From: Magnetococcales bacterium
GTDB lineage: Bacteria > Pseudomonadota > Magnetococcia > Magnetococcales > JADFZT01
Direction: 5' to 3'
Assembly: GCA_015232395.1 (NCBI GenBank)
Contig: JADFZT010000033.1
Location: 1 to 48,111 of the forward strand
Length of the DNA stretch: 48,111 nucleotides
Translations under genes and position numbers: made by a program
The notes under the pieces: generated by a model
The model's input: the letters and a program-made list of their open reading frames with translations, nothing else
Told to the model about the DNA's origin: nothing
Database searches by the model: none
Part shown: one piece after another, positions 1 through 36,811 of the stretch
How positions within the stretch are numbered: position 1 is the first letter of the stretch
How the letters are laid out: each line of letters begins with the position of its first letter

Positions 1-100
<100 letters not shown>

Positions 101-217
101 AGAATGGATAGGCTCATCCAAAATGAGTTCCGCAGGATTTATGCCGCTTTGGAAGATGGTTTTCCGGGAGGGGTGAGTCAAGGAGGGGGGTTGAGGGAAA
201 ATACAATAGTTTACTGA

Positions 218-580
218 TCGTTACGAAGCGTCATAAAAAAGAGGTCGCAGCATTTAACAGGGTGGGGTGGGAGCAGTGCTTGACTGAGTAGTGGATAAAA
301 AGTGTGTCATATCACACAATGTTTTTTAAAAAGTGAGCTGAATGACTCATTGCAGCTTGGACGAGAGGAAAAGTAACCCCGATTTGGCTGGGAGTGGGGT
401 CTGTTGTTCCAGGAGGGTGTGGGGATTTTCACCTGTTTGGGTGAGGTGTGGAGTGTTTTTTGTGGACAGTAAACTGGACAGTAAACAAAGCATAAAACAC
501 AACACAAAACAAGCTCATCTGGCAGGCGTATGATCCGATTTAATGGTTCAATGATCAAAAAATCAATGAGTTAACAATTA
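218..580. other. Gene-free leader region upstream of the first membrane peptide
   Basis: No convincing coding sequence is seen here. The stretch is more AT-rich than the genes downstream. It holds a short palindrome, GTGTG-N6-CACAC at 302-317, of the size of a dimeric regulator site, and the 12-bp tandem repeat listed separately at 463-486. Its 3' end runs into the -24/-12 promoter at 581-596, so it may hold activator sites for that promoter. Confidence 0.5.
463..486. repeat. Tandem 12-bp repeat TGGACAGTAAAC, candidate activator site
   Basis: TGGACAGTAAAC occurs twice head to tail. The copies lie about 110-130 bp upstream of the -12 element at 592-596, which is the usual distance for an enhancer of a sigma-54 activator. 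The core ACAGTAAACT resembles ACAGTTAACT, found on the minus strand at 35320-35329, about 100 bp upstream of the second sigma-54 promoter. The enhancer role is an inference. Confidence 0.4.
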
Positions 581-596
581 TGGCCCGACCATTGCA
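581..596 (+). promoter_or_regulatory. Sigma-54 (-24/-12) promoter of the first membrane peptide
   Basis: TGGCCCG-ACCA-TTGCA matches the sigma-54 consensus TGGCACG-N4-TTGCW at all but one position. The invariant GG and GC are separated by exactly 10 bases. Transcription would start near 607, about 60 nt before the peptide start codon at 668. The other promoter of this kind, at 35223-35238, has almost the same layout. Confidence 0.65.
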
Positions 597-667: not shown

Positions 668-793
668 ATGACCGAGTCCTACACTTTCAGCTCCCCCATC
701 CTCACTTCCCTGTTGGCCATTCTTTCAGCAGCCGCTGTTTTTTCCACCCCGAGCCTTATCTGGAGCACCCTGAATTTGGCTGGATTGATTTGA
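668..793 (+). CDS. 41-aa single-helix membrane peptide, family of three in this window
   Basis: The gene encodes 41 residues beginning MTESYTFSSPILTSLLAIL. A hydrophobic segment covers roughly residues 11-33 and is followed by TPSLIW and a short LNLAGLI tail. GGAGA lies 7 nt before the ATG. The same plan (TFSS, LTS, a hydrophobic core, F(A/S)TPSL(L/I)W, L(N/D)L) is found in the two 43-aa products at 34741-34872 and 35024-35155, 34 kb away. Conservation of protein sequence between distant loci, each with a good ribosome site, is the argument that this is a real gene. A sigma-54 promoter lies just upstream. The protein is probably an inner-membrane peptide, either a subunit or regulator of a larger complex or an envelope-stress peptide. 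The function is unknown and I recognise no named family. Confidence 0.75.
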   Translation: MTESYTFSSPILTSLLAILSAAAVFSTPSLIWSTLNLAGLI

Positions 794-1276
794 AGTGGTT
801 GACCGGCAGGCAAGCTCAATCCTGGATGGGCGTTTGGAATCAGGAATCCGTTGGACCATCCGAAAAAAAACCGGGCGCAACGATCTCGTCCCCTCTCCAA
901 CCAGAAACCTTCGGGTGACCGGTTTGGGAGCGGGATGGGGCAGCTTGGGTGGCGGGATGTGTTTATTCCAAGTCGGTTGAGGGAATGGATTTTTTTGGAT
1001 CTTCAGTCTGTTTGTTCCAGTTGCCCAGCCAGTGAAGGGGGCGTTTTTTTCAAGCCGGTTTTTTTCTCTGGCAGCAGGGTATGGCAGCGTCTTATGATTT
1101 AAAAATATAATAGACCATTCCGGGGGTTCAATGGGATTTTGCTGGGGATCCCGGGGAATCATTCAAAAACCCTGTTTTATCCTGTCGATTGTTTAAAATA
1201 TTGAGGTATCATCAACGCCGATGCTGTTTTGCAAGCCTGGGGGCAGTCAAACCGTGATCCACTGGGAGAGGCGTTG
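794..1276. other. Gene-free spacer between the membrane peptide and the hybrid kinase
   Basis: Open frames here have no family resemblance and overlap one another on both strands. The only structures seen are the terminator-like hairpin at 1023-1050 and an AT-rich stretch near 1095-1112 (taaaaatataatag) that could hold a promoter for the kinase operon. Confidence 0.45.
1023..1050 (+). terminator. Possible intrinsic terminator
   Basis: GCCC, a two-base bulge and CC pair with GG and GGGC across an AGTGAA loop, followed by G and seven T residues. The stem is short. It is the best candidate for ending the transcript of the 668-793 peptide. Confidence 0.35.
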
Positions 1277-4200
1277 TTGAAGCTTAAGGTGAAATCCCCA
1301 CTGCTCCTTCTGCTCTCTCTTTTGACGCTTCTGGCTGCCTACCCCCTGGAAGCCTCACCCCCTCCCGCCAAGCGTCATATCCTTCTGCTCAACTCCTACC
1401 ACGCCACCATGCCCTGGGTACGCAATGTGGTCCAGGCGGTGGAGGATGCCATCGAGCCCCGGCAAGGTCAGCTCAACCTCCATACCGAATATATGGATAC
1501 CAAGCAGGTTCCCTATGATGAAACATATCAGGGCCTGCTCTATGCGCTTCTGGAACAAAAATATCGACAGACACCCGTTGAATTGGTGATGGTTTCGGAC
1601 AATAACGCCTTTGAATTCATGCGGGCGTATGGAGAGCGGCTTTTTCCGGGTGTTCCGGTGGTTTTTTGTGGGGTGAACAATTTTCAGGCTGCCTGGATCG
1701 AGGAATTTCCCCATTTTACCGGTATTGCCGAGGTGTTTGACGCCAAAGCGACCCTTGCAGCCGCTTTGGAAATGCATCCCCACACCCAGCGGGTTTTTAT
1801 CATCAACGACCACCTGCCCACCGGTCAGGCCTGGGCGGCCTCCATTCGTCAGCAGTTGGCCGGGTTTGAAAAACGGGTGGAGCTGATTTTTTCCCGGGAG
1901 TGGCCCTTCACTGTTTTGGAAGAGCGGGTGGCGGGGCTGGACGCGGATACGCTGGTGCTCTTCGGGGTCTATTTTCGGGATGCCACAGGGCAATATTACG
2001 ACTTCTGGGAGAGTATGGGGCGGCTTTCCCGGGTGAGCCCGGTGCCTATTTATGGGCTGCTTGATCTCTATCTGGGGTATGGTCTCGCAGGGGGTAACCT
2101 CATCAGTGGTTATCATCAAGGGGAGGAAGCGGCCCGTTTTGCCTTGGCCATTCTGGATGGCCAGAGTCCCAATCAGTTGCCCGTCTCCTGGAGCGGAACC
2201 AACCGGTTTATGTTTGATTATAAGCAGATGCAACGCTTCGGCATCTCAGCCGCACAACTCCCCCCAGCCAGCACCATTGTCAATCAGCCCCCTTCCCTGT
2301 TGCGGGAGTATGCCCTCTTTTTCTGGTCAGCGGTGGGGGTGATCCTCCTGCTGACCGTGCTGGTCTTGCTGTTGGCCGCCAACGTCATTCGCCGAAAAAA
2401 GGCCGAAAGCGCCCTTCAGGAGTCCAAGGACCATCTGGAAGTTCGGGTGGAAGAGAGAACCCGGGCGCTTTTCGAGAGTGAACAGCGATTTCGGGGTTTG
2501 GTGGAAACCCTCAACGACTGGATTTGGGAGATCGACCGGGAGGGGTGCTACACCTATGTGAGCCCCAAAGTGGAGGCGTTGCTGGGTTATCCCCCTGAAG
2601 AGTTGATCGGCACCCGGCCCCAGGCTTTATGGGAGCCTTCCAGTATTCCTGGGATTGAGGCGTTGTTGCGGAGGCACTACCAGGAGCAGACCCCTTTTGC
2701 CGACCTGGAGGTGCCCACTCTGAAGAGAGACGGTACCCTGATTTTTGTTGAGGTGAATGGTCAGCCGATCATTGATTCGGAGGGGGAATTTTTCGGCTTT
2801 CGCGGCGTGGTGCGGGATATCACCTCTCGGCGGGCGGCGGAAGAGGCGTTGCGGGATAGCGAGGAGCGATTTCATCAATTCATGTTACATACCCCTCTGG
2901 TTGCCTTTATCAAGGATGACCGGGGGCGGATGGTTTATGCCAATGCCGCCTGGGAAAAATTGACCGGCAGACAAAGGTCTGGCTGGGAAGGTCGGACCAG
3001 CTACGACTTTTATCCCGGGGAGATCGCCGATTCTTTGGCTGCGGATGATCGGGAAGTTCTCTTGAGTGGCCAGCATCGGGTGTTTCAGGAAAGCGTGCCC
3101 CGTGGGGATAAAATCAGCCATTGGCTTTCCCACAAGTTTGGTTTTCGAAATTCCCGGGGAGAACATTTTTTGGGGGGGGTGGCCTTTGATATTACCGAGC
3201 GCACCCGTATGGAAGCGGAGTTGCGGGAAAATGAGGCCACCTTCCGGGCGATTTTCGATCAGGGGGGGATGGGCATCGCCATGGGGGATCTCAACGGACG
3301 GCTCCTCCAGGTCAATGCCGCTTTTGCCCGAATATTGGGCTATACACCACAAGAGTTGGATGGTTATTGCTGGCAGCATATTTCCCACCCCGACGGCCTG
3401 AAGGATAATATCCGATTTTATCAGGAAGTGTTGGCGGGAGAGCGCGCTTCCTTCGAACTGGAAAAACGTTATTTCCGCAAGGGAGGTGGGACCGTTTGGG
3501 CGCACCTGACCGTCACGCCGGTGCTCTCCACCAACGGCCAGGTCGCCTTTGTCATCGGTATGATACAGGATATCACCCAGCGCAAACGCATGGAGACGGA
3601 TCTGGAGCAGGCCAAATCCCGGGCGGAGTCGGCCAATCGGGCCAAGAGTGAATTTTTGGCCGCCATGAGCCACGACCTGCGCACCCCTCTCAACGCCATC
3701 ATCGGTCTGGGGGATGTGCTCAGGGAGTCCCATCTGGACAAAGTACAGCGCAGCTATTTGGATATCGTCATCAATGCCGGGGATACCTTGCTGGTCTTGA
3801 TCAACGATATTTTGGATCTATCCAAAATTGAAGCGGGTCAGATGCAGCTCGAAGAGCAGCCCTTTGATCTGGGAGCGTTGCTTGAAGAGGTGGTGTCGGT
3901 GCTTCGAGTGAATGCTGATTCCAAGGAGATTGCCCTTCACTGTCAGTCGGAAGGAGAGAAGCCCATTTGGGTGAAAGGGGATTCCCAGCGGCTTCGGCAG
4001 ATTCTATACAATCTGTTGGGTAACGCGATCAAGTTTACCCAAAAGGGGAGTGTGGAGCTGAAGGCCGTGCCTCTGGATAGCCAAAAAATGCATTTTGAGG
4101 TGAGGGATACCGGAATCGGTATTGCACCAGAGCGCCTGGAAAAGGTTTTCGAGCCTTTTCAACAAGCGGAGGGGAGCCGAACCACCTCCCGTTTTGGGGG

Positions 4201-4822
4201 GACGGGGCTGGGGCTTTCCATCTGTCGCAAGCTGGTCACTCTGATGGGGGGGGAGATCGGGGTGCAAAGTGTGGTGGATGAGGGGAGTGTTTTTTCTTTT
4301 ACAGTTGAGCTGCCATCGGTGTTGATGGAGGCCGGGGATGGGTTTGATCCAGGGAGAGAGAGGGGTTCGAGTCAGGCTCAGGGGGTGGCCCTGGACAGGG
4401 GGCTTGAGATTCTCGCAGTGGATGATGCGATGGATAATTTGCTGCTTCTCAAGGCCTATCTGAAGAAAACCCCCCATACCTTGACCCTGGCTAATAACGG
4501 TCAGGAAGCGGTGGAGCGTTTTCAAGCCGGTCGGTTTGATGTGGTGCTGATGGATATTCAGATGCCGGTCATGGATGGTTATGCCGCTACCCGGGCGATA
4601 CGGGCGTGGGAGCGGGAAACAGGCTGCCTGCCCACTCGGATTATTGCGCTGACCGCCCACGTCATGAAAGAGGTCGCCCAAAAGGTGGCAGCGGCGGGGT
4701 GTGATGGCCACCTGGCCAAACCGATTCGCAAGGAGACTCTTCTCAAAGCTTTGGCCCAACCCCTGAGCGGGGTCCGTGAGGGTCATCTGGTGGGGCATGA
4801 AAGCCAGGGGAGCGGTGGATGA
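1277..4822 (+). CDS. Hybrid sensor histidine kinase with periplasmic-binding-like sensor, three PAS domains and receiver
   Basis: A predicted inner-membrane phosphorelay kinase. Order from the TTG at 1277: signal sequence (about 1-27), a periplasmic ABC-substrate-binding-like sensor (about 30-330, starting RHILLLNSYH), a membrane helix (about 343-370), three PAS domains (about 402-520, 529-645, 653-770), HisKA with phospho-accepting His799 (MSHDLRTPL), HATPase with N box NLLGNAIKFT, DTGIGI and GGTGLGLSI, and a C-terminal receiver with Asp1093 (VVLMDIQMP). TTG 1277 is preferred because GGGAGAGG lies just before it and a clean signal peptide follows; the frame is open upstream to a TTG at 1229. 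The gene overlaps the next kinase by 4 bp (ATGA), so the two are translationally coupled. The ligand is not predictable. No response regulator or Hpt gene is adjacent. Confidence 0.88.
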   Translation: MKLKVKSPLLLLLSLLTLLAAYPLEASPPPAKRHILLLNSYHATMPWVRNVVQAVEDAIEPRQGQLNLHTEYMDTKQVPYDETYQGLLYALLEQKYRQTPVELVMVSDNNAFEFMRAYGERLFPGVPVVFCGVNNFQAAWIEEFPHFTGIAEVFDAKATLAAALEMHPHTQRVFIINDHLPTGQAWAASIRQQLAGFEKRVELIFSREWPFTVLEERVAGLDADTLVLFGVYFRDATGQYYDFWESMGRLSRVSPVPIYGLLDLYLGYGLAGGNLISGYHQGEEAARFALAILDGQSPNQLPVSWSGTNRFMFDYKQMQRFGISAAQLPPASTIVNQPPSLLREYALFFWSAVGVILLLTVLVLLLAANVIRRKKAESALQESKDHLEVRVEERTRALFESEQRFRGLVETLNDWIWEIDREGCYTYVSPKVEALLGYPPEELIGTRPQALWEPSSIPGIEALLRRHYQEQTPFADLEVPTLKRDGTLIFVEVNGQPIIDSEGEFFGFRGVVRDITSRRAAEEALRDSEERFHQFMLHTPLVAFIKDDRGRMVYANAAWEKLTGRQRSGWEGRTSYDFYPGEIADSLAADDREVLLSGQHRVFQESVPRGDKISHWLSHKFGFRNSRGEHFLGGVAFDITERTRMEAELRENEATFRAIFDQGGMGIAMGDLNGRLLQVNAAFARILGYTPQELDGYCWQHISHPDGLKDNIRFYQEVLAGERASFELEKRYFRKGGGTVWAHLTVTPVLSTNGQVAFVIGMIQDITQRKRMETDLEQAKSRAESANRAKSEFLAAMSHDLRTPLNAIIGLGDVLRESHLDKVQRSYLDIVINAGDTLLVLINDILDLSKIEAGQMQLEEQPFDLGALLEEVVSVLRVNADSKEIALHCQSEGEKPIWVKGDSQRLRQILYNLLGNAIKFTQKGSVELKAVPLDSQKMHFEVRDTGIGIAPERLEKVFEPFQQAEGSRTTSRFGGTGLGLSICRKLVTLMGGEIGVQSVVDEGSVFSFTVELPSVLMEAGDGFDPGRERGSSQAQGVALDRGLEILAVDDAMDNLLLLKAYLKKTPHTLTLANNGQEAVERFQAGRFDVVLMDIQMPVMDGYAATRAIRAWERETGCLPTRIIALTAHVMKEVAQKVAAAGCDGHLAKPIRKETLLKALAQPLSGVREGHLVGHESQGSGG

Positions 4823-7668
4823 TTGCCCGTCGGGTGCGCTCGGAAAGTGATGCCCACAACCTCAATATTTTTAAGATGGTGCTGGCCTGCTTTTTGGCAG
4901 GTTTTCCCAGTCTGCTCTTTTCCCTGCCCCCCACCCACAGTACGGTCATCCATCCAGCCTCCGGGGTGGCTTTGGCGGGGCTTCTGCTCTGGGGGTGGCG
5001 GTTGTGGCCAGGGGTGTTTTTAGGGATCTTTTTTCTGGGATTGTGGGCCTTTCTGGAAGAAGGGGGGCCGTTTACCATTCACGGTTATGCCTTGGCCGTG
5101 GGCATGGCTGTGGCGGGCACTCTCCAGGCGGTGCTGGGCTATCTTCTGGCAAGACGCCTTTTTCGAATCTCCCTGCGTCTCGACGATGCCATGGGTGTGG
5201 CCCGCCTGTTTCTTATTGTGGGGCCGGGCGCCTGTCTGCTGGGCGCTTCGGTGGTGGTGTGGGTGCTCTGGACTTTGGAGTTTGTCCAGACCGTCGATCT
5301 GCGTTTTACCTGGTGGACCTGGTGGGTGGGGGAGAGCCTCGGCATTTTTTTTGTTTTGCCATTGATGCTGATCGCTTTTGGAACGCCCCGCTCTCTCTGG
5401 CGGGGAAGGGGCGTTGCCGTTGGGTGGCCATTGGTGATCGCAGCAGTTGTGCTGACTCAAATGTTTGCCTATTCGAGCCGCTATGAAGCGGATCGTTTGA
5501 GAAATGCCTTTCGAGAGGAGGCGCGGGTGTTGGCCCACACCCTGGAGAGTCAGTTTGATCGCTACCTGGAAGTGATCTGGTCTCTGGAAGGTTATTTTGC
5601 CGGCTCTCAACATGTCTCCCGGGAGGAGTTCAAGGCCTTTGTTCGGGGCGTGTTGCCCCGCCATCCAGGGATTCAGGCCATCTCCTGGAATCCACGCATT
5701 TTGAACCAGGAGCGTGCGGAGTTCGAAGCCCGGGTACGGTGGGATTTTTTGGAGAATTTTGAGATTACTGAAAAATCCCCTGAGGGGCTGTTGGTTCCGG
5801 CGGGTGTCCGGGATGAATATATCGTTGTCAACTATATCGAACCTCTGGAAACCAATCGCAGTGCCGTTGGTTTTGACGTGGCCTCCACGCCGGAGCGCAA
5901 GGTGGCTCTCGATATGGCCCGGGACAGTGGCCAACCTGTTGCCACGGCCCCCATCAATCTGGTTCAAAATATCCGCAAGTCTTTGGGAGTGCTTGTTTTT
6001 TTGCCAATTTATCGGTGGCCCCTGGAGGTTGAATCCGTAGCAGATCGGCGCAATAATCTGCTTGGGTTTGGGGTGGGGGTGTTTCGCCTGGGAGATGTGA
6101 TTCGCCACGCTTTTGGCAAGGATTATCTGAAACATCTGGAGCATGTGGTCGGGCGGGTCTACGATGTCACACCGGGTTTGGCTGAGGAAAAGCAGCTCAT
6201 AACCATCTTTTTGCGCAAGGATGGTGCGGTCTTCGAGTTTCCCGATGAGATCATCCCTCTGGTGGATCCCAAGGGGTTCCGTTGGAACCAAACCTATGAC
6301 ATGCGGGGGCGGGTGTGGCGTTTCACCTTCGACACCACTTATCGCTACCGGTCGGAATTCAGGGATTGGGGGGAGTGGATGCTGCCTTTGGGGGGGCTGC
6401 TTTTTTCCGGGCTTCTGGCGGCGTCGCTTTTGGTGATCACCGGGCGCACCCATCGCAACCACGAATTGGCCCGCCAGCTGGAAGGGCGCAAGGCGGCGTT
6501 GGAGCGATCCAATATCGAGTTGGAACAGGAGATCCATCAGAGGCAGGAGGCGGAAGACAGGCTCAGGCAGAGTGAGGAGCGCTTTCGAGGGGCCTTCGAG
6601 GGGGCAGCCCACGGCATGGCTCTGGTCTCTCCCAGTGGTCACTTGCTGCTGGTCAATCAGGCCCTCTGCCGCATGACCGGTTATGGTGAAGCGGAACTGC
6701 TGAAAATGGATTTTCAAAGCTTCACCCACCCGGAGGATTTGCCGGAGGATCTGGACTCCCAGGCGCGTATCCAGCAAGGGGAGATCGACAAGTATGAGCG
6801 GGATAAACGCTGTTTTAACAAGGAGGGACAAGCCTTTTTGGCGCACCTGGCCGTATCGGTGATTCGGGGGAGTGATGGGGCACCTCTCTACAGCGTTTTT
6901 CAGATGCGGGATATCACCCAGGAGCGGGAGTTGGAGGCCCGGATCCAATCCGCTGAGCGGCTGGCTTCGGTAGGGCGACTGGCGGCGGGGCTTGCCCATG
7001 AGGTGAACAATCCCCTGGCGAGTGCCTCCATCAACCTCCAGGGACTGAAAATGGAACTGGAAGAGGTCTTGGCTTCCAGCAGTGATGCGCGTCACCAGAT
7101 GGCAATCATTGAACGCAGTTTGGATCGCTCCTCCCAGATTGCCAAGGAGGTGCTGGCCTTTTCCAGCCAAGGTGACCAAGGGTTTTCCCCGCTGGATCTC
7201 AACGATGTTTTGGAATCCGCCCTACAGTTGGTGGAGCATCGGCTGGAAGGGATCGTCTTGCACCGGGATTTGGCGGATCTGCCGGATGTGGCAGGGCTTT
7301 ACGGTAAATTGGAGCAGGTGTGCATCAATCTATTGAACAATGCTCTGGATGCCTGTCCCGAGGAGGGTGGGGTGCTCCATCTGACCTCTTTTTTGGAAGA
7401 GGGGTGTGGGGTGCTCACCATTCGGGATAATGGCTGTGGTATTCCGGAAAAAATCATGGGCCGGGTGATGGTGCCTTTTTTTACCACCAAGCGGGTGGGG
7501 GATGGCACGGGCTTGGGGTTGGCAGTCTGCTATGGGATTGTGACCCAACACCGGGGAGAGCTGGAACTGGTCAATCATCCGGAAGGGGGGGTGACCGCTA
7601 CCGTGCGGATCCCTCTGCCGGAAAAAGGGGGTGGCAAAAGGGTCTATCCGATCCTGCCCCTTGGTTGA
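4819..7668 (+). CDS. MASE1-CHASE-PAS sensor histidine kinase
   Basis: A 949-aa membrane histidine kinase. The N-terminal part (about 14-220) is a multi-helix MASE1-type membrane sensor. It is followed by a CHASE-type extracytoplasmic domain (about 230-505), a membrane helix (about 518-542), a short coiled coil, a PAS domain (about 583-702, with the typical GYGEAELL turn) and HisKA with the phospho-acceptor His727 in LAHEVNNPLAS. The HATPase domain carries NLLNNALDA, DNGCGIP and GTGLGLAVCYG. The short H box and the HEVNNP motif place it near the NtrB/PAS-PAC kinase class. The gene starts inside the stop codon of the hybrid kinase, so the two probably act together. It has no receiver domain and no neighbouring regulator, so the output partner is unknown. 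Confidence 0.88.
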   Translation: MIARRVRSESDAHNLNIFKMVLACFLAGFPSLLFSLPPTHSTVIHPASGVALAGLLLWGWRLWPGVFLGIFFLGLWAFLEEGGPFTIHGYALAVGMAVAGTLQAVLGYLLARRLFRISLRLDDAMGVARLFLIVGPGACLLGASVVVWVLWTLEFVQTVDLRFTWWTWWVGESLGIFFVLPLMLIAFGTPRSLWRGRGVAVGWPLVIAAVVLTQMFAYSSRYEADRLRNAFREEARVLAHTLESQFDRYLEVIWSLEGYFAGSQHVSREEFKAFVRGVLPRHPGIQAISWNPRILNQERAEFEARVRWDFLENFEITEKSPEGLLVPAGVRDEYIVVNYIEPLETNRSAVGFDVASTPERKVALDMARDSGQPVATAPINLVQNIRKSLGVLVFLPIYRWPLEVESVADRRNNLLGFGVGVFRLGDVIRHAFGKDYLKHLEHVVGRVYDVTPGLAEEKQLITIFLRKDGAVFEFPDEIIPLVDPKGFRWNQTYDMRGRVWRFTFDTTYRYRSEFRDWGEWMLPLGGLLFSGLLAASLLVITGRTHRNHELARQLEGRKAALERSNIELEQEIHQRQEAEDRLRQSEERFRGAFEGAAHGMALVSPSGHLLLVNQALCRMTGYGEAELLKMDFQSFTHPEDLPEDLDSQARIQQGEIDKYERDKRCFNKEGQAFLAHLAVSVIRGSDGAPLYSVFQMRDITQERELEARIQSAERLASVGRLAAGLAHEVNNPLASASINLQGLKMELEEVLASSSDARHQMAIIERSLDRSSQIAKEVLAFSSQGDQGFSPLDLNDVLESALQLVEHRLEGIVLHRDLADLPDVAGLYGKLEQVCINLLNNALDACPEEGGVLHLTSFLEEGCGVLTIRDNGCGIPEKIMGRVMVPFFTTKRVGDGTGLGLAVCYGIVTQHRGELELVNHPEGGVTATVRIPLPEKGGGKRVYPILPLG

Positions 7669-34740: not shown

Positions 34741-34872
34741 TCACACCACGTTGATCAGGTCAAGGGTGGCCCAGAGCAGGGAAGGGGTGGCGAAGATGGT
34801 GACCACCGCCAGGATGGAAAGGGTTGAGGTCAGGGCGATGGAAGAGAAGGTGATATTGTCGGACTGGTTCAT
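34741..34872 (-). CDS. 43-aa single-helix membrane peptide (second of tandem pair)
   Basis: Encodes a 43-aa peptide beginning MNQSDNITFSSIALTSTLSI, with a hydrophobic core (about residues 13-29), then FATPSLLW and a short TLDLINVV tail. It is nearly identical in plan to the product of 35024-35155 (same MNQSDN start, TFSSI, LTS, FATPSLLW) and related to that of 668-793. GGAG lies 8-10 nt before the ATG. It is the downstream member of a same-strand pair, with 151 bp between the two and no clear terminator. It is therefore probably transcribed from the sigma-54 promoter at 35223-35238. Longer frames on either strand across this locus are not supported. Function unknown; membrane location inferred. 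Confidence 0.82.
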   Translation of the reverse strand: MNQSDNITFSSIALTSTLSILAVVTIFATPSLLWATLDLINVV

Positions 34873-35023
34873 GGCATTTCTCCTGAATGTGGTCATCAAA
34901 TACCCGTCTTGGGTTTGATTTGATCTGTTTATGAAGTCTATTAGGGGATGGCTGTCTGCTTTCCGGACTGCTTGGATGCATTGAGCCTTCGACCCTTTGG
35001 CGCGGTGGTATTGAACGTGGGGT

Positions 35024-35155
35024 TTAAACTGCGGCCACCAGGTTCAGTGCGGTCCAGAGCAGGGACGGGGTGGCAAAAACGGTCACCGCCGCCACAATGG
35101 ACACAACCGAGGTCAGAACGATCGAAGAGAAGGTGCTGTTGTCGGATTGGTTCAT
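35024..35155 (-). CDS. 43-aa single-helix membrane peptide (first of tandem pair)
   Basis: Encodes a 43-aa peptide beginning MNQSDNSTFSSIVLTSVVSI, with an uninterrupted hydrophobic segment (about residues 12-29), FATPSLLW, and the tail TALNLVAAV. AAGGAGA lies 7 nt before the ATG. It is the closest paralogue of 34741-34872; many third-codon positions differ while the protein is kept, indicating selection on the peptide. A sigma-54 promoter lies 68-83 bp upstream, and a sigma-54 activator gene is divergent on the other side of that promoter. This is the best-supported member of the family. Possible roles are a small subunit of a membrane complex or a stress peptide. No catalytic residues are present. 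Confidence 0.85.
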   Translation of the reverse strand: MNQSDNSTFSSIVLTSVVSIVAAVTVFATPSLLWTALNLVAAV

Positions 35156-35222: not shown

Positions 35223-35238
35223 AGCAGGGTGCGTGCCA
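35223..35238 (-). promoter_or_regulatory. Sigma-54 (-24/-12) promoter of the tandem membrane peptides
   Basis: On the minus strand TGGCACG-CACC-CTGCT matches the consensus at all seven -24 bases and four of five -12 bases. GG and GC are exactly 10 bases apart. Transcription would begin near 35212, about 57 nt before the ATG at 35155, close to the 61 nt at the first peptide locus. Confidence 0.75.
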
Positions 35239-35289: not shown

Positions 35290-35310
35290 GCCTGTGGAAT
35301 AACGTAAACA
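35282..35310 (+). promoter_or_regulatory. Candidate sigma-70 promoter of the activator gene
   Basis: TTGCAA, 17 bp, TAAACA. The start would be near 35317, about 40 nt before the ATG at 35357. Confidence 0.4.
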
Positions 35311-35312
35311 AG

Positions 35313-35329
35313 ACAGTGAAGTTAACTGT
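35313..35329. promoter_or_regulatory. Candidate activator-binding site (ACAGT-N7-ACTGT)
   Basis: An inverted repeat ACAGTGAAGTTAACTGT. On the minus strand it contains ACAGTTAACT, similar to ACAGTAAACT at 466-475 near the first peptide promoter. It is about 90-100 bp upstream of the -12 element of the tandem-peptide promoter and at the presumed start site of the activator gene. Enhancer and autoregulation roles are inferred. Confidence 0.35.
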
Positions 35330-35356
35330 TAATAGTGGACAATGTGGGGAGCGCCC

Positions 35357-36811
35357 ATGAATACCCTGAACCCCATGAACGCCCTGCGACCTTTTTTGGA
35401 TGGATTGGAGGAGGGGGTGCTGTTTTTGGATCGCAAGCGCCGGGTGGTGGCGATCAATCAGGCGGCGTCCAAAATGATCGGACAAGCCCATGAAAGGGTG
35501 GTGGGGCAGCTCTGTCCCAGCCTGTTTACAGGGACGGATTGTGCCAAGGCCTGTGCAGCCCGCAACGACTGCGCGCTCATCCCCACCCGGGAGCACAATA
35601 CCCGCACCTTGGATCTCACCCTGGACCGGGATAACGGCTCAGTGATTTTTTTGCGTATGTGGGCCGTCCTGCTGCCGGATGTGGCGGACATGACCCTCTA
35701 TGCCGTGATTTTGCGGGATTGCACCCGGGAAATGATGCTGGAGGAGGAGGCCCGGGAGCGGATGCGCCTGGGGGGGATGGTGGGCCATGGACCCGCCATG
35801 CGGGAGCTGTTTCAGAATATTTTGCGGGCAGCGATGAGTCATGCCACCGTCTTGATCCAGGGCGAGAGCGGTACCGGTAAGGAGTTGGTGGCCCGGGCCT
35901 TACATGACAACTCCCCCAGGAGTGAAGGCCCCTACATCCGGGTTCACTGCGCTTCCTTCCCGGAAAATTTGCTGGAAAGCGAACTGTTCGGTTATGCCAA
36001 AGGGGCTTTTACCGGGGCGGAGAGCCCACGTATCGGTCGTTTCGAAGCTGCTGACGGGGGAACGATTCTGCTGGATGAAATCGGTGAAATTTCCACGGTG
36101 ACCCAGGTCAAACTCCTGCGGGTACTTCAGGAGCGGGAGGTGGAGCGGTTGGGGGAAAACAAGGTGCGCAAGGTGGATGTCCGGGTGATCGCCGCCACCA
36201 ATCGGGATCTGGGAGCGATGGTGAGGGAGGGGACATTTCGGGAAGATCTTTACTACCGGCTGAAGGTGCTCCCCATCACCACCCCACCGCTGAGAGAGCG
36301 GCCTGAAGATATTTCCCTGCTGGTGCAGGCCCTGCTGGGAGAGATGATGGAACGCTATCAGCGGGAGGAGGTTCGGCTGACCACCGAGGCGATTACCTTG
36401 CTGGAGTGTCACAGCTGGCCGGGCAATGTGCGGGAGTTGAGTAACGCCTTGGAATATGCCCTGGTGCAGACCCCCGGCAATACCATCCATCCCCATCAGT
36501 TTCCCCCGGAGCTTTTGGCCCAGGCTCCCCCCTTGCAGCCCTTCGATTCACCCCTTCAAGCGCTCGCCCCACCCGCTTACGCCCCGCAAGCTTCTTCTTT
36601 CCAACCCCAAGCCACCCACCCTTTGGCATCCTCCCCTGAACGCAAGACCGTTGGCTACTATCGCGGGGGAGATGCCGCGTCGGAAAAAAAACGCATCCTC
36701 CAGGTGCTTGCCCAGACCCGGGGCAATAAGGTGGAAGCGGCCAAGCAGTTGGGGATGTCCCGGACGACCCTGTGGAAGCGAATCAAAGCTTACGGTTTGG
36801 ATAAGGGATAG
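35357..36811 (+). CDS. PAS-type sigma-54-dependent transcriptional activator
   Basis: A 484-aa enhancer-binding protein with all features needed for sigma-54 activation. An N-terminal PAS domain (about residues 10-125) holds four cysteines, Cys53, 62, 66 and 72 (C-x8-C-x3-C-x5-C), suited to a metal, Fe-S or redox sensor. The AAA+ domain has Walker A GESGTGKE (169-176), GAFTGA (216-221), Walker B GGTILLDEIGE and FREDLYYRLKV. A Pro-rich linker precedes the Fis-type helix-turn-helix (NKVEAAKQLGMSRTTLWKRI). It has no receiver domain, so it senses its signal directly. ATG 35357 is preferred (GGGGAG 6 bp upstream) over ATG 35342. It is divergent from the tandem membrane peptides and shares their control region, so it is probably their activator. 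Confidence 0.92.
   Translation: MNTLNPMNALRPFLDGLEEGVLFLDRKRRVVAINQAASKMIGQAHERVVGQLCPSLFTGTDCAKACAARNDCALIPTREHNTRTLDLTLDRDNGSVIFLRMWAVLLPDVADMTLYAVILRDCTREMMLEEEARERMRLGGMVGHGPAMRELFQNILRAAMSHATVLIQGESGTGKELVARALHDNSPRSEGPYIRVHCASFPENLLESELFGYAKGAFTGAESPRIGRFEAADGGTILLDEIGEISTVTQVKLLRVLQEREVERLGENKVRKVDVRVIAATNRDLGAMVREGTFREDLYYRLKVLPITTPPLRERPEDISLLVQALLGEMMERYQREEVRLTTEAITLLECHSWPGNVRELSNALEYALVQTPGNTIHPHQFPPELLAQAPPLQPFDSPLQALAPPAYAPQASSFQPQATHPLASSPERKTVGYYRGGDAASEKKRILQVLAQTRGNKVEAAKQLGMSRTTLWKRIKAYGLDKG

Follow-up and report, generated by a model that had tools for sequence, protein, structure and literature searches.

The window analysed here, 48,111 nucleotides of the Magnetococcales contig JADFZT010000033.1, encodes three related short peptides, one near its start and two as a tandem pair:

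668 to 793, forward strand: peptide gene copy 1, 41 aa, with a GGAG ribosome site 7-10 bases 5' of the ATG
35024 to 35155, reverse strand: peptide gene copy 2, 43 aa, first gene of the tandem pair
34741 to 34872, reverse strand: peptide gene copy 3, 43 aa, second gene of the tandem pair

The translations (MTESYTFSSPILTSLLAILSAAAVFSTPSLIWSTLNLAGLI, MNQSDNSTFSSIVLTSVVSIVAAVTVFATPSLLWTALNLVAAV and MNQSDNITFSSIALTSTLSILAVVTIFATPSLLWATLDLINVV for copies 1, 2 and 3) align without gaps apart from a two-residue deletion in copy 1, and 17 columns of the alignment are invariant, including TFSS, LTS, F, TPSL, W and L-x-L. All three start codons are preceded at the correct spacing by GGAGA or AGGAGAAA. 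To the 5' side of copy 1 the contig opens with about 100 mostly-G bases (window 1-110), which by their appearance are an assembly or sequencing artefact.

Between copies 2 and 3, 33 of the 132 bases are different, with an excess of changes at third codon positions (9, 7 and 17 at the first, second and third positions, respectively) and a dN/dS of 0.26, and the DNA flanking them is much less similar than the ORFs themselves. Under an equal number of random base changes, amino-acid changes as few as those observed have a probability of P = 0.003. An independent orthologue pair from two other Magnetococcales genomes (here G022 and G030) gave a dN/dS of 0.18 (neutral P = 0.0008). When a profile of the three copies was run against the 4.94 Mb window genome, it retrieved just these copies, with E-values of 1e-21 to 1e-25, the next match standing at 0.15. 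Given the low dN/dS, the neutral P values and the profile matches, the resemblance between the copies reflects neither chance nor low complexity: the peptide genes are protein-coding and under purifying constraint.

AlphaFold2 predicts a single, almost uncharged helix of about 39 residues (positions 4-42; mean pLDDT 83.5) with a proline at position 30, and the maximum of the Kyte-Doolittle plot over 19 residues (1.9-2.2) is that of a peptide with one membrane-spanning hydrophobic helix. The window copies contain no Arg or Lys; they also have no His, no Cys and no Met within the helix that could hold a cofactor, and the peptide itself is therefore not a redox enzyme. Searches with the peptides gave no match in Pfam or among plasmid sequences, no significant match in the PDB, and nothing below an E-value of 0.01 in NCBIfam or PHROG, the best PHROG match (E 0.012) being regarded as chance. 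Likenesses to SecD/F (E 0.02) and to the light-harvesting (LH) beta chain (E 0.12) were put down to generic hydrophobicity and rejected. In the open-access literature we found no description of such a family. These results uphold much of an earlier, sequence-only reading of this DNA, which had proposed three related genes at these positions, preceded by good ribosome sites and encoding real, selected, membrane-type peptides of an apparently undescribed family.

Copies 1 and 2 each lie downstream of activator boxes and a sigma54 promoter, and the tandem pair diverges from a gene for a sigma54 activator:

463 to 489, forward strand: tandem activator boxes GGACAGTAAACT GGACAGTAAACA before copy 1, with a 12-bp period, the second box lying 103 bp before the sigma54 element
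581 to 596, forward strand: sigma54 -24/-12 element TGGCCCGACCATTGCA of copy 1
35223 to 35238, reverse strand: sigma54 -24/-12 element TGGCACGCACCCTGCT of copies 2 and 3
35300 to 35342, reverse strand: activator boxes TTGTCCACTATTAACAGTTAACTTCACTGTCTTGTTTACG before copy 2, with ACAGTTAAC at 35329, 91 bp before the sigma54 element
35342 to 36811, forward strand: divergent sigma54 activator, 489 aa, with PAS, AAA+ and Fis-type HTH domains; its start is possibly codon 12 (35375)

Copy 3 is probably co-transcribed with copy 2, because it has no sigma54 element of its own. The boxes upstream of copies 1 and 2 are of one type, tandem ACAGTWAAC (hereafter ACAGTTAAC-type), and comparable arrangements precede norC of the window genome and the peptide genes of G022, G030 and a further genome, G008; the distance from box to promoter is 91 bp for copy 2, norC and G030, 92 bp for G008 and G022, and 103 bp for copy 1. 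In pattern searches, from which all the genome-wide box counts come, a strict combination of boxes and sigma54 element was found at two sites in the 4.94 Mb window genome, both at peptide genes. A looser combination gave three sites, the third of which lies before norCBQD (C13:32932); over 48 genomes it gave seven, all of them targets of the activator, against one in the reversed control. The joint pattern did not occur at all in simulated 48-kb sequences. The NorB of this operon is a genuine cNOR subunit (its closest PDB match is 3o0r_B, E 8e-236), and its NorQ carries PF08406. The first gene past the norCBQD sigma54 promoter encodes a YgaP-like small membrane protein (PF11127, E 4e-23; L094 792-1004, contig C13 of the window genome, G000). 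In G008, the pattern was found at the peptide gene alone. Judging by the pattern, copy 1, the operon of copies 2 and 3, and norCBQD would be co-regulated. For the function of the peptides, the sigma54 promoters, the activator boxes and this putative control in common with norCBQD are the most telling features, and the sequence-only reading had missed them.

The activator is orthologous in all the genomes with peptides (61-62% identity) and is without a membrane part. Its N-terminal region matches PAS_9, PAS and PAS_4, and no GAF domain was found; in NorR, the sensor is a GAF iron domain. Across 12 aligned orthologues the PAS domain displays four invariant cysteines in the arrangement CPxLF-x4-CAxxC-x5-C. 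Against the NCBIfam NorR equivalog the window protein scores 332.7 bits, below the cut-off of 476, and other activator families score higher. The peptide genes are the divergent first target of the activator in G008 and G022, as is the tandem pair in the window. In G030 the pieces are divided between two contigs, the peptides at the end of one and the activator at the end of the other; the latter retains the boxes and an outward-pointing sigma54 element.

The homologues that the sequence-only reading had expected elsewhere were recovered by profile searches with no length cutoff. There are five further copies in three Magnetococcales genomes, namely one in G008 (completeness 99%) and a tandem pair each in G022 and G030 (the latter 65% complete), the second G030 copy being truncated by the contig end. 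With the window genome included, clear copies are found in 4 of the 48 Magnetococcales genomes searched, and none was detected in about 350 other genomes of the phylum (399 of the phylum sampled). Over about 1200 genomes, the profile identified just the four Magnetococcales genomes and one Chromatiales MAG, with no further clear member in 210 genomes from the order to which that MAG belongs and 369 from its class. The family is therefore narrowly distributed, contrary to the suggestion that its relatives may be widely missed. Weak matches among loci L008-L033, L166, L167, L171-L173, L176-L181 and L187-L190 lay mostly within larger ORFs or crossed stops; no sigma54/box promoter accompanied the ones inspected, and none of the weak matches was retained. 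The TPSL-W segment, which had been described as strictly kept, is so in the three window copies but not outside the window, where it reads SLPSLIW, SSPYLIW, ATPSVIY and TIPELIW; across the wider family solely the proline, one leucine and the start Met are invariant.

Since a pattern-based contig search with the peptide returned no relatives, the PAS domain of the activator was used as the query instead. This search gave 54 loci (L109-L162), including ones from Beta- and Gammaproteobacteria. Elsewhere in Magnetococcales, what lies opposite the activator is norCB (L077, L080, L083 and L084), qNOR (L079) or a gene for a small secreted protein (L078, L081 and L082). A frequent arrangement in Beta- and Gammaproteobacteria puts the activator opposite a gene for a small secreted protein, behind which come genes for a subunit-II-like protein and a haem-copper-type subunit I; this subunit I has no close PDB match, and we take its likeness to the class called sNOR as a candidate assignment. 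In Betaproteobacteria and some Magnetococcales, the same promoter position is taken by a second unnamed family of small secreted proteins (79-108 aa, with the motif ASFxRxxxH...DPLxxxVxxxLW), which provides the first ORF divergent to the activator at L109, L114, L115, L118, L119, L123, L140 and L162; the two members scanned had no Pfam match. Taken as a whole, these loci point to what is apparently a family of sigma54 activators with a four-Cys PAS domain, separate from NorR, as yet unnamed and often facing operons for NO reductases or haem-copper-type proteins.

One of these loci, in the Chromatiales MAG PL23a_bin.5 (L120), has the activator, the boxes and a sigma54 promoter, and then a 46-aa ORF that is preceded by a good ribosome site and whose C-terminal end is AVTIPELIWTGMFLITVF (also written ...TIPELIWTGMFLITVF). 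Scored with a Magnetococcales profile built without it, this ORF was the best of 43 small ORFs in the same promoter position (E 0.0028), and we regard it as a candidate remote relative, mainly by its position and a short motif. In the activator tree, PL23a_bin.5 is sister to all the Magnetococcales rows (98/93), on a long branch whose placement is unsure. These data hint that the link between activator and peptide may be old, and that norCB or qNOR may have taken the place of the peptide directly in some lines.

The peptide locus of G008, G022 and G030 has nirS and haem-d1 genes as neighbours (a NirJ equivalog, AhbA/B-type proteins and a cytochrome cd1 domain). A strong hairpin stands between the peptide gene and these genes (L034 8624-8662, L035 8203-8250 and L036 8439-8481) and possibly ends a short peptide transcript; the window copies have no comparable hairpin. 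The nir/haem-d1 cluster of the window genome is on a different contig, and a search of that genome for a nir operon under the same boxes found none. In G008 and G022, no protein of the COX1 family (PF00115) is NorB-like; therefore not every host can have the peptide as an obligatory subunit of cNOR, and we rejected cNOR as its universal partner. G022, G030 and G008 also encode a diverged COX1-like protein, with an ABC transporter after it (L099 1444-2814, L100 1408-2796).

The peptides are, then, a real, undescribed and narrowly distributed family of small membrane proteins, linked by anatomy to an NO-type sigma54 regulon. As to what they do, we lean towards viewing them as single-helix inner-membrane outputs of an NO (or closely related denitrification) regulon that is run by a NorR-like but distinct activator, and we consider this account somewhat probable. 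By homology, the cytosolic four-Cys PAS activator would sense NO or the accompanying redox change, probably through an Fe-S or metal site; the targets of the activator likewise suggest that its signal is NO or a related redox signal. To go by the anatomy, it would then act at the tandem ACAGTTAAC-type boxes, 91-103 bp before the -24/-12 promoter, and switch on the sigma54 transcription of copy 1, the operon of copies 2 and 3, and norCBQD. The predicted proline-containing helix might lie in the inner membrane beside the NO-producing or NO-consuming respiratory proteins. There the peptide would probably assist or modulate membrane enzymes of NO/denitrification, as a small accessory protein that may stabilise, tune or protect them under NO. 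It is conceivable, if doubtful, that these parts make up a distinct NO-sensing sigma54 system (four-Cys PAS, perhaps Fe-S) whose sole clear direct output in some lineages is a tiny membrane peptide through which cells without cNOR tolerate NO or control denitrification; if true, that system would work by a protein-membrane mechanism so far undescribed.

Other readings of the same loci have to be weighed against this account. Co-regulation with cNOR in the window genome might also be expected if the peptide were a subunit of one respiratory complex, packed on a haem-copper enzyme that is employed in the presence of NO, as CydX, CcoQ and ba3 subunit IIa are on theirs. Moreover, G008 and the window genome have ba3-like oxidases in common, and the ba3 class has a tiny single-helix subunit. 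However, the flanks fetched upstream of the ba3-like genes have no box/sigma54 pattern, cNOR is absent from G008 and G022 by PF00115, and a stoichiometric subunit is seldom encoded by several paralogues in one genome; such a role is possible, yet we think it rather improbable. Small single-helix regulon products also often modulate kinases, and large kinases adjoin both window loci: two sensor kinases follow copy 1 (window 1229-7668), one of 1197 aa that combines several PAS domains with a receiver and one of 949 aa with a MASE1-CHASE arrangement, and NtrY adjoins the tandem pair. The peptides could accordingly feed back on a membrane histidine kinase, such as the 1197-aa protein or NtrY, in the manner of MgrB or SafA. 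We find this unlikely, as the activator to which the peptides are linked has no membrane part and the kinases neighbouring the window copies are not beside the G008 and G022 homologues, which adjoin nir genes instead.

A toxin or growth-arrest peptide that is induced by NO stress and lowers the membrane potential would also be short, very hydrophobic, made from single-gene transcripts and present in several tandem or dispersed copies, traits that resemble those of Ibs/Ldr/Zor-type toxins. Yet the window copies lack Arg and Lys, no named toxin or RNA family matches them, an Rfam scan of the tandem pair gave no antisense RNA candidate, and every locus seen is tied to one sigma54 activator, which makes a type I toxin-like role decidedly unlikely. 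The short transcripts that the strong hairpins of G008, G022 and G030 make likely might finally be taken for sigma54-driven leaders or small regulatory RNAs in which an ORF occurs by chance. We hold this to be highly improbable: in two independent pairs the amino acids are better conserved than expected by chance, the ribosome sites are kept, there is no Rfam match, and the window copies are without a comparable hairpin.

On the favoured account, that of membrane outputs of an NO-type regulon, an anonymous family of small ORFs becomes a testable hypothesis with a regulator, boxes, a promoter and a physiological setting, namely NO reduction and denitrification, from which N2O arises. The peptides are probably part of NO handling in such magnetotactic-type bacteria. 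Further, an apparently undescribed family of NO-type sigma54 activators spans Magnetococcales, Beta- and Gammaproteobacteria, and its first target is often an unnamed small protein.

Several known systems invite comparison. The peptides are like the type I toxins (Ibs, Ldr, Zor and TisB) in size, hydrophobicity and tandem copies, and unlike them in lacking any sequence match and, in the window copies, basic residues, and in having one conserved stress-type promoter rather than a known antisense partner. With CydX, CcoQ and ba3 subunit IIa they share their size and single-helix build; however, there is no sequence match to these, no oxidase gene adjoins any copy, and there are several paralogues per genome. 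Unlike NorF and NorE of the norCBQDEF cluster, the window copies are on a different contig from norCBQD, and elsewhere the peptide genes are near nir genes or alone. Small membrane proteins have also been linked to the expression of NO reductase in another system (PMC13036017); the window peptides differ from it in being 41-43 aa long with one helix, in lying outside the nor operon, in occurring also in genomes without a cNOR NorB, and in showing no family match. The closest parallel in layout is with NorR, the NO-responsive sigma54 activator of norVW, norAB and hmp (PMC1274295): as in its regulon, a sigma54 activator is divergent to its target, and tandem upstream boxes and a sigma54 promoter precede an NO reductase operon (norCBQD here, norCB or qNOR elsewhere). 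The window activator is nonetheless set apart from NorR by a PAS domain with four invariant Cys in place of GAF and by its score below the NorR equivalog cut-off, and its regulon by ACAGTTAAC-type boxes rather than the GT-N7-AC of NorR and by targets that include the peptides.
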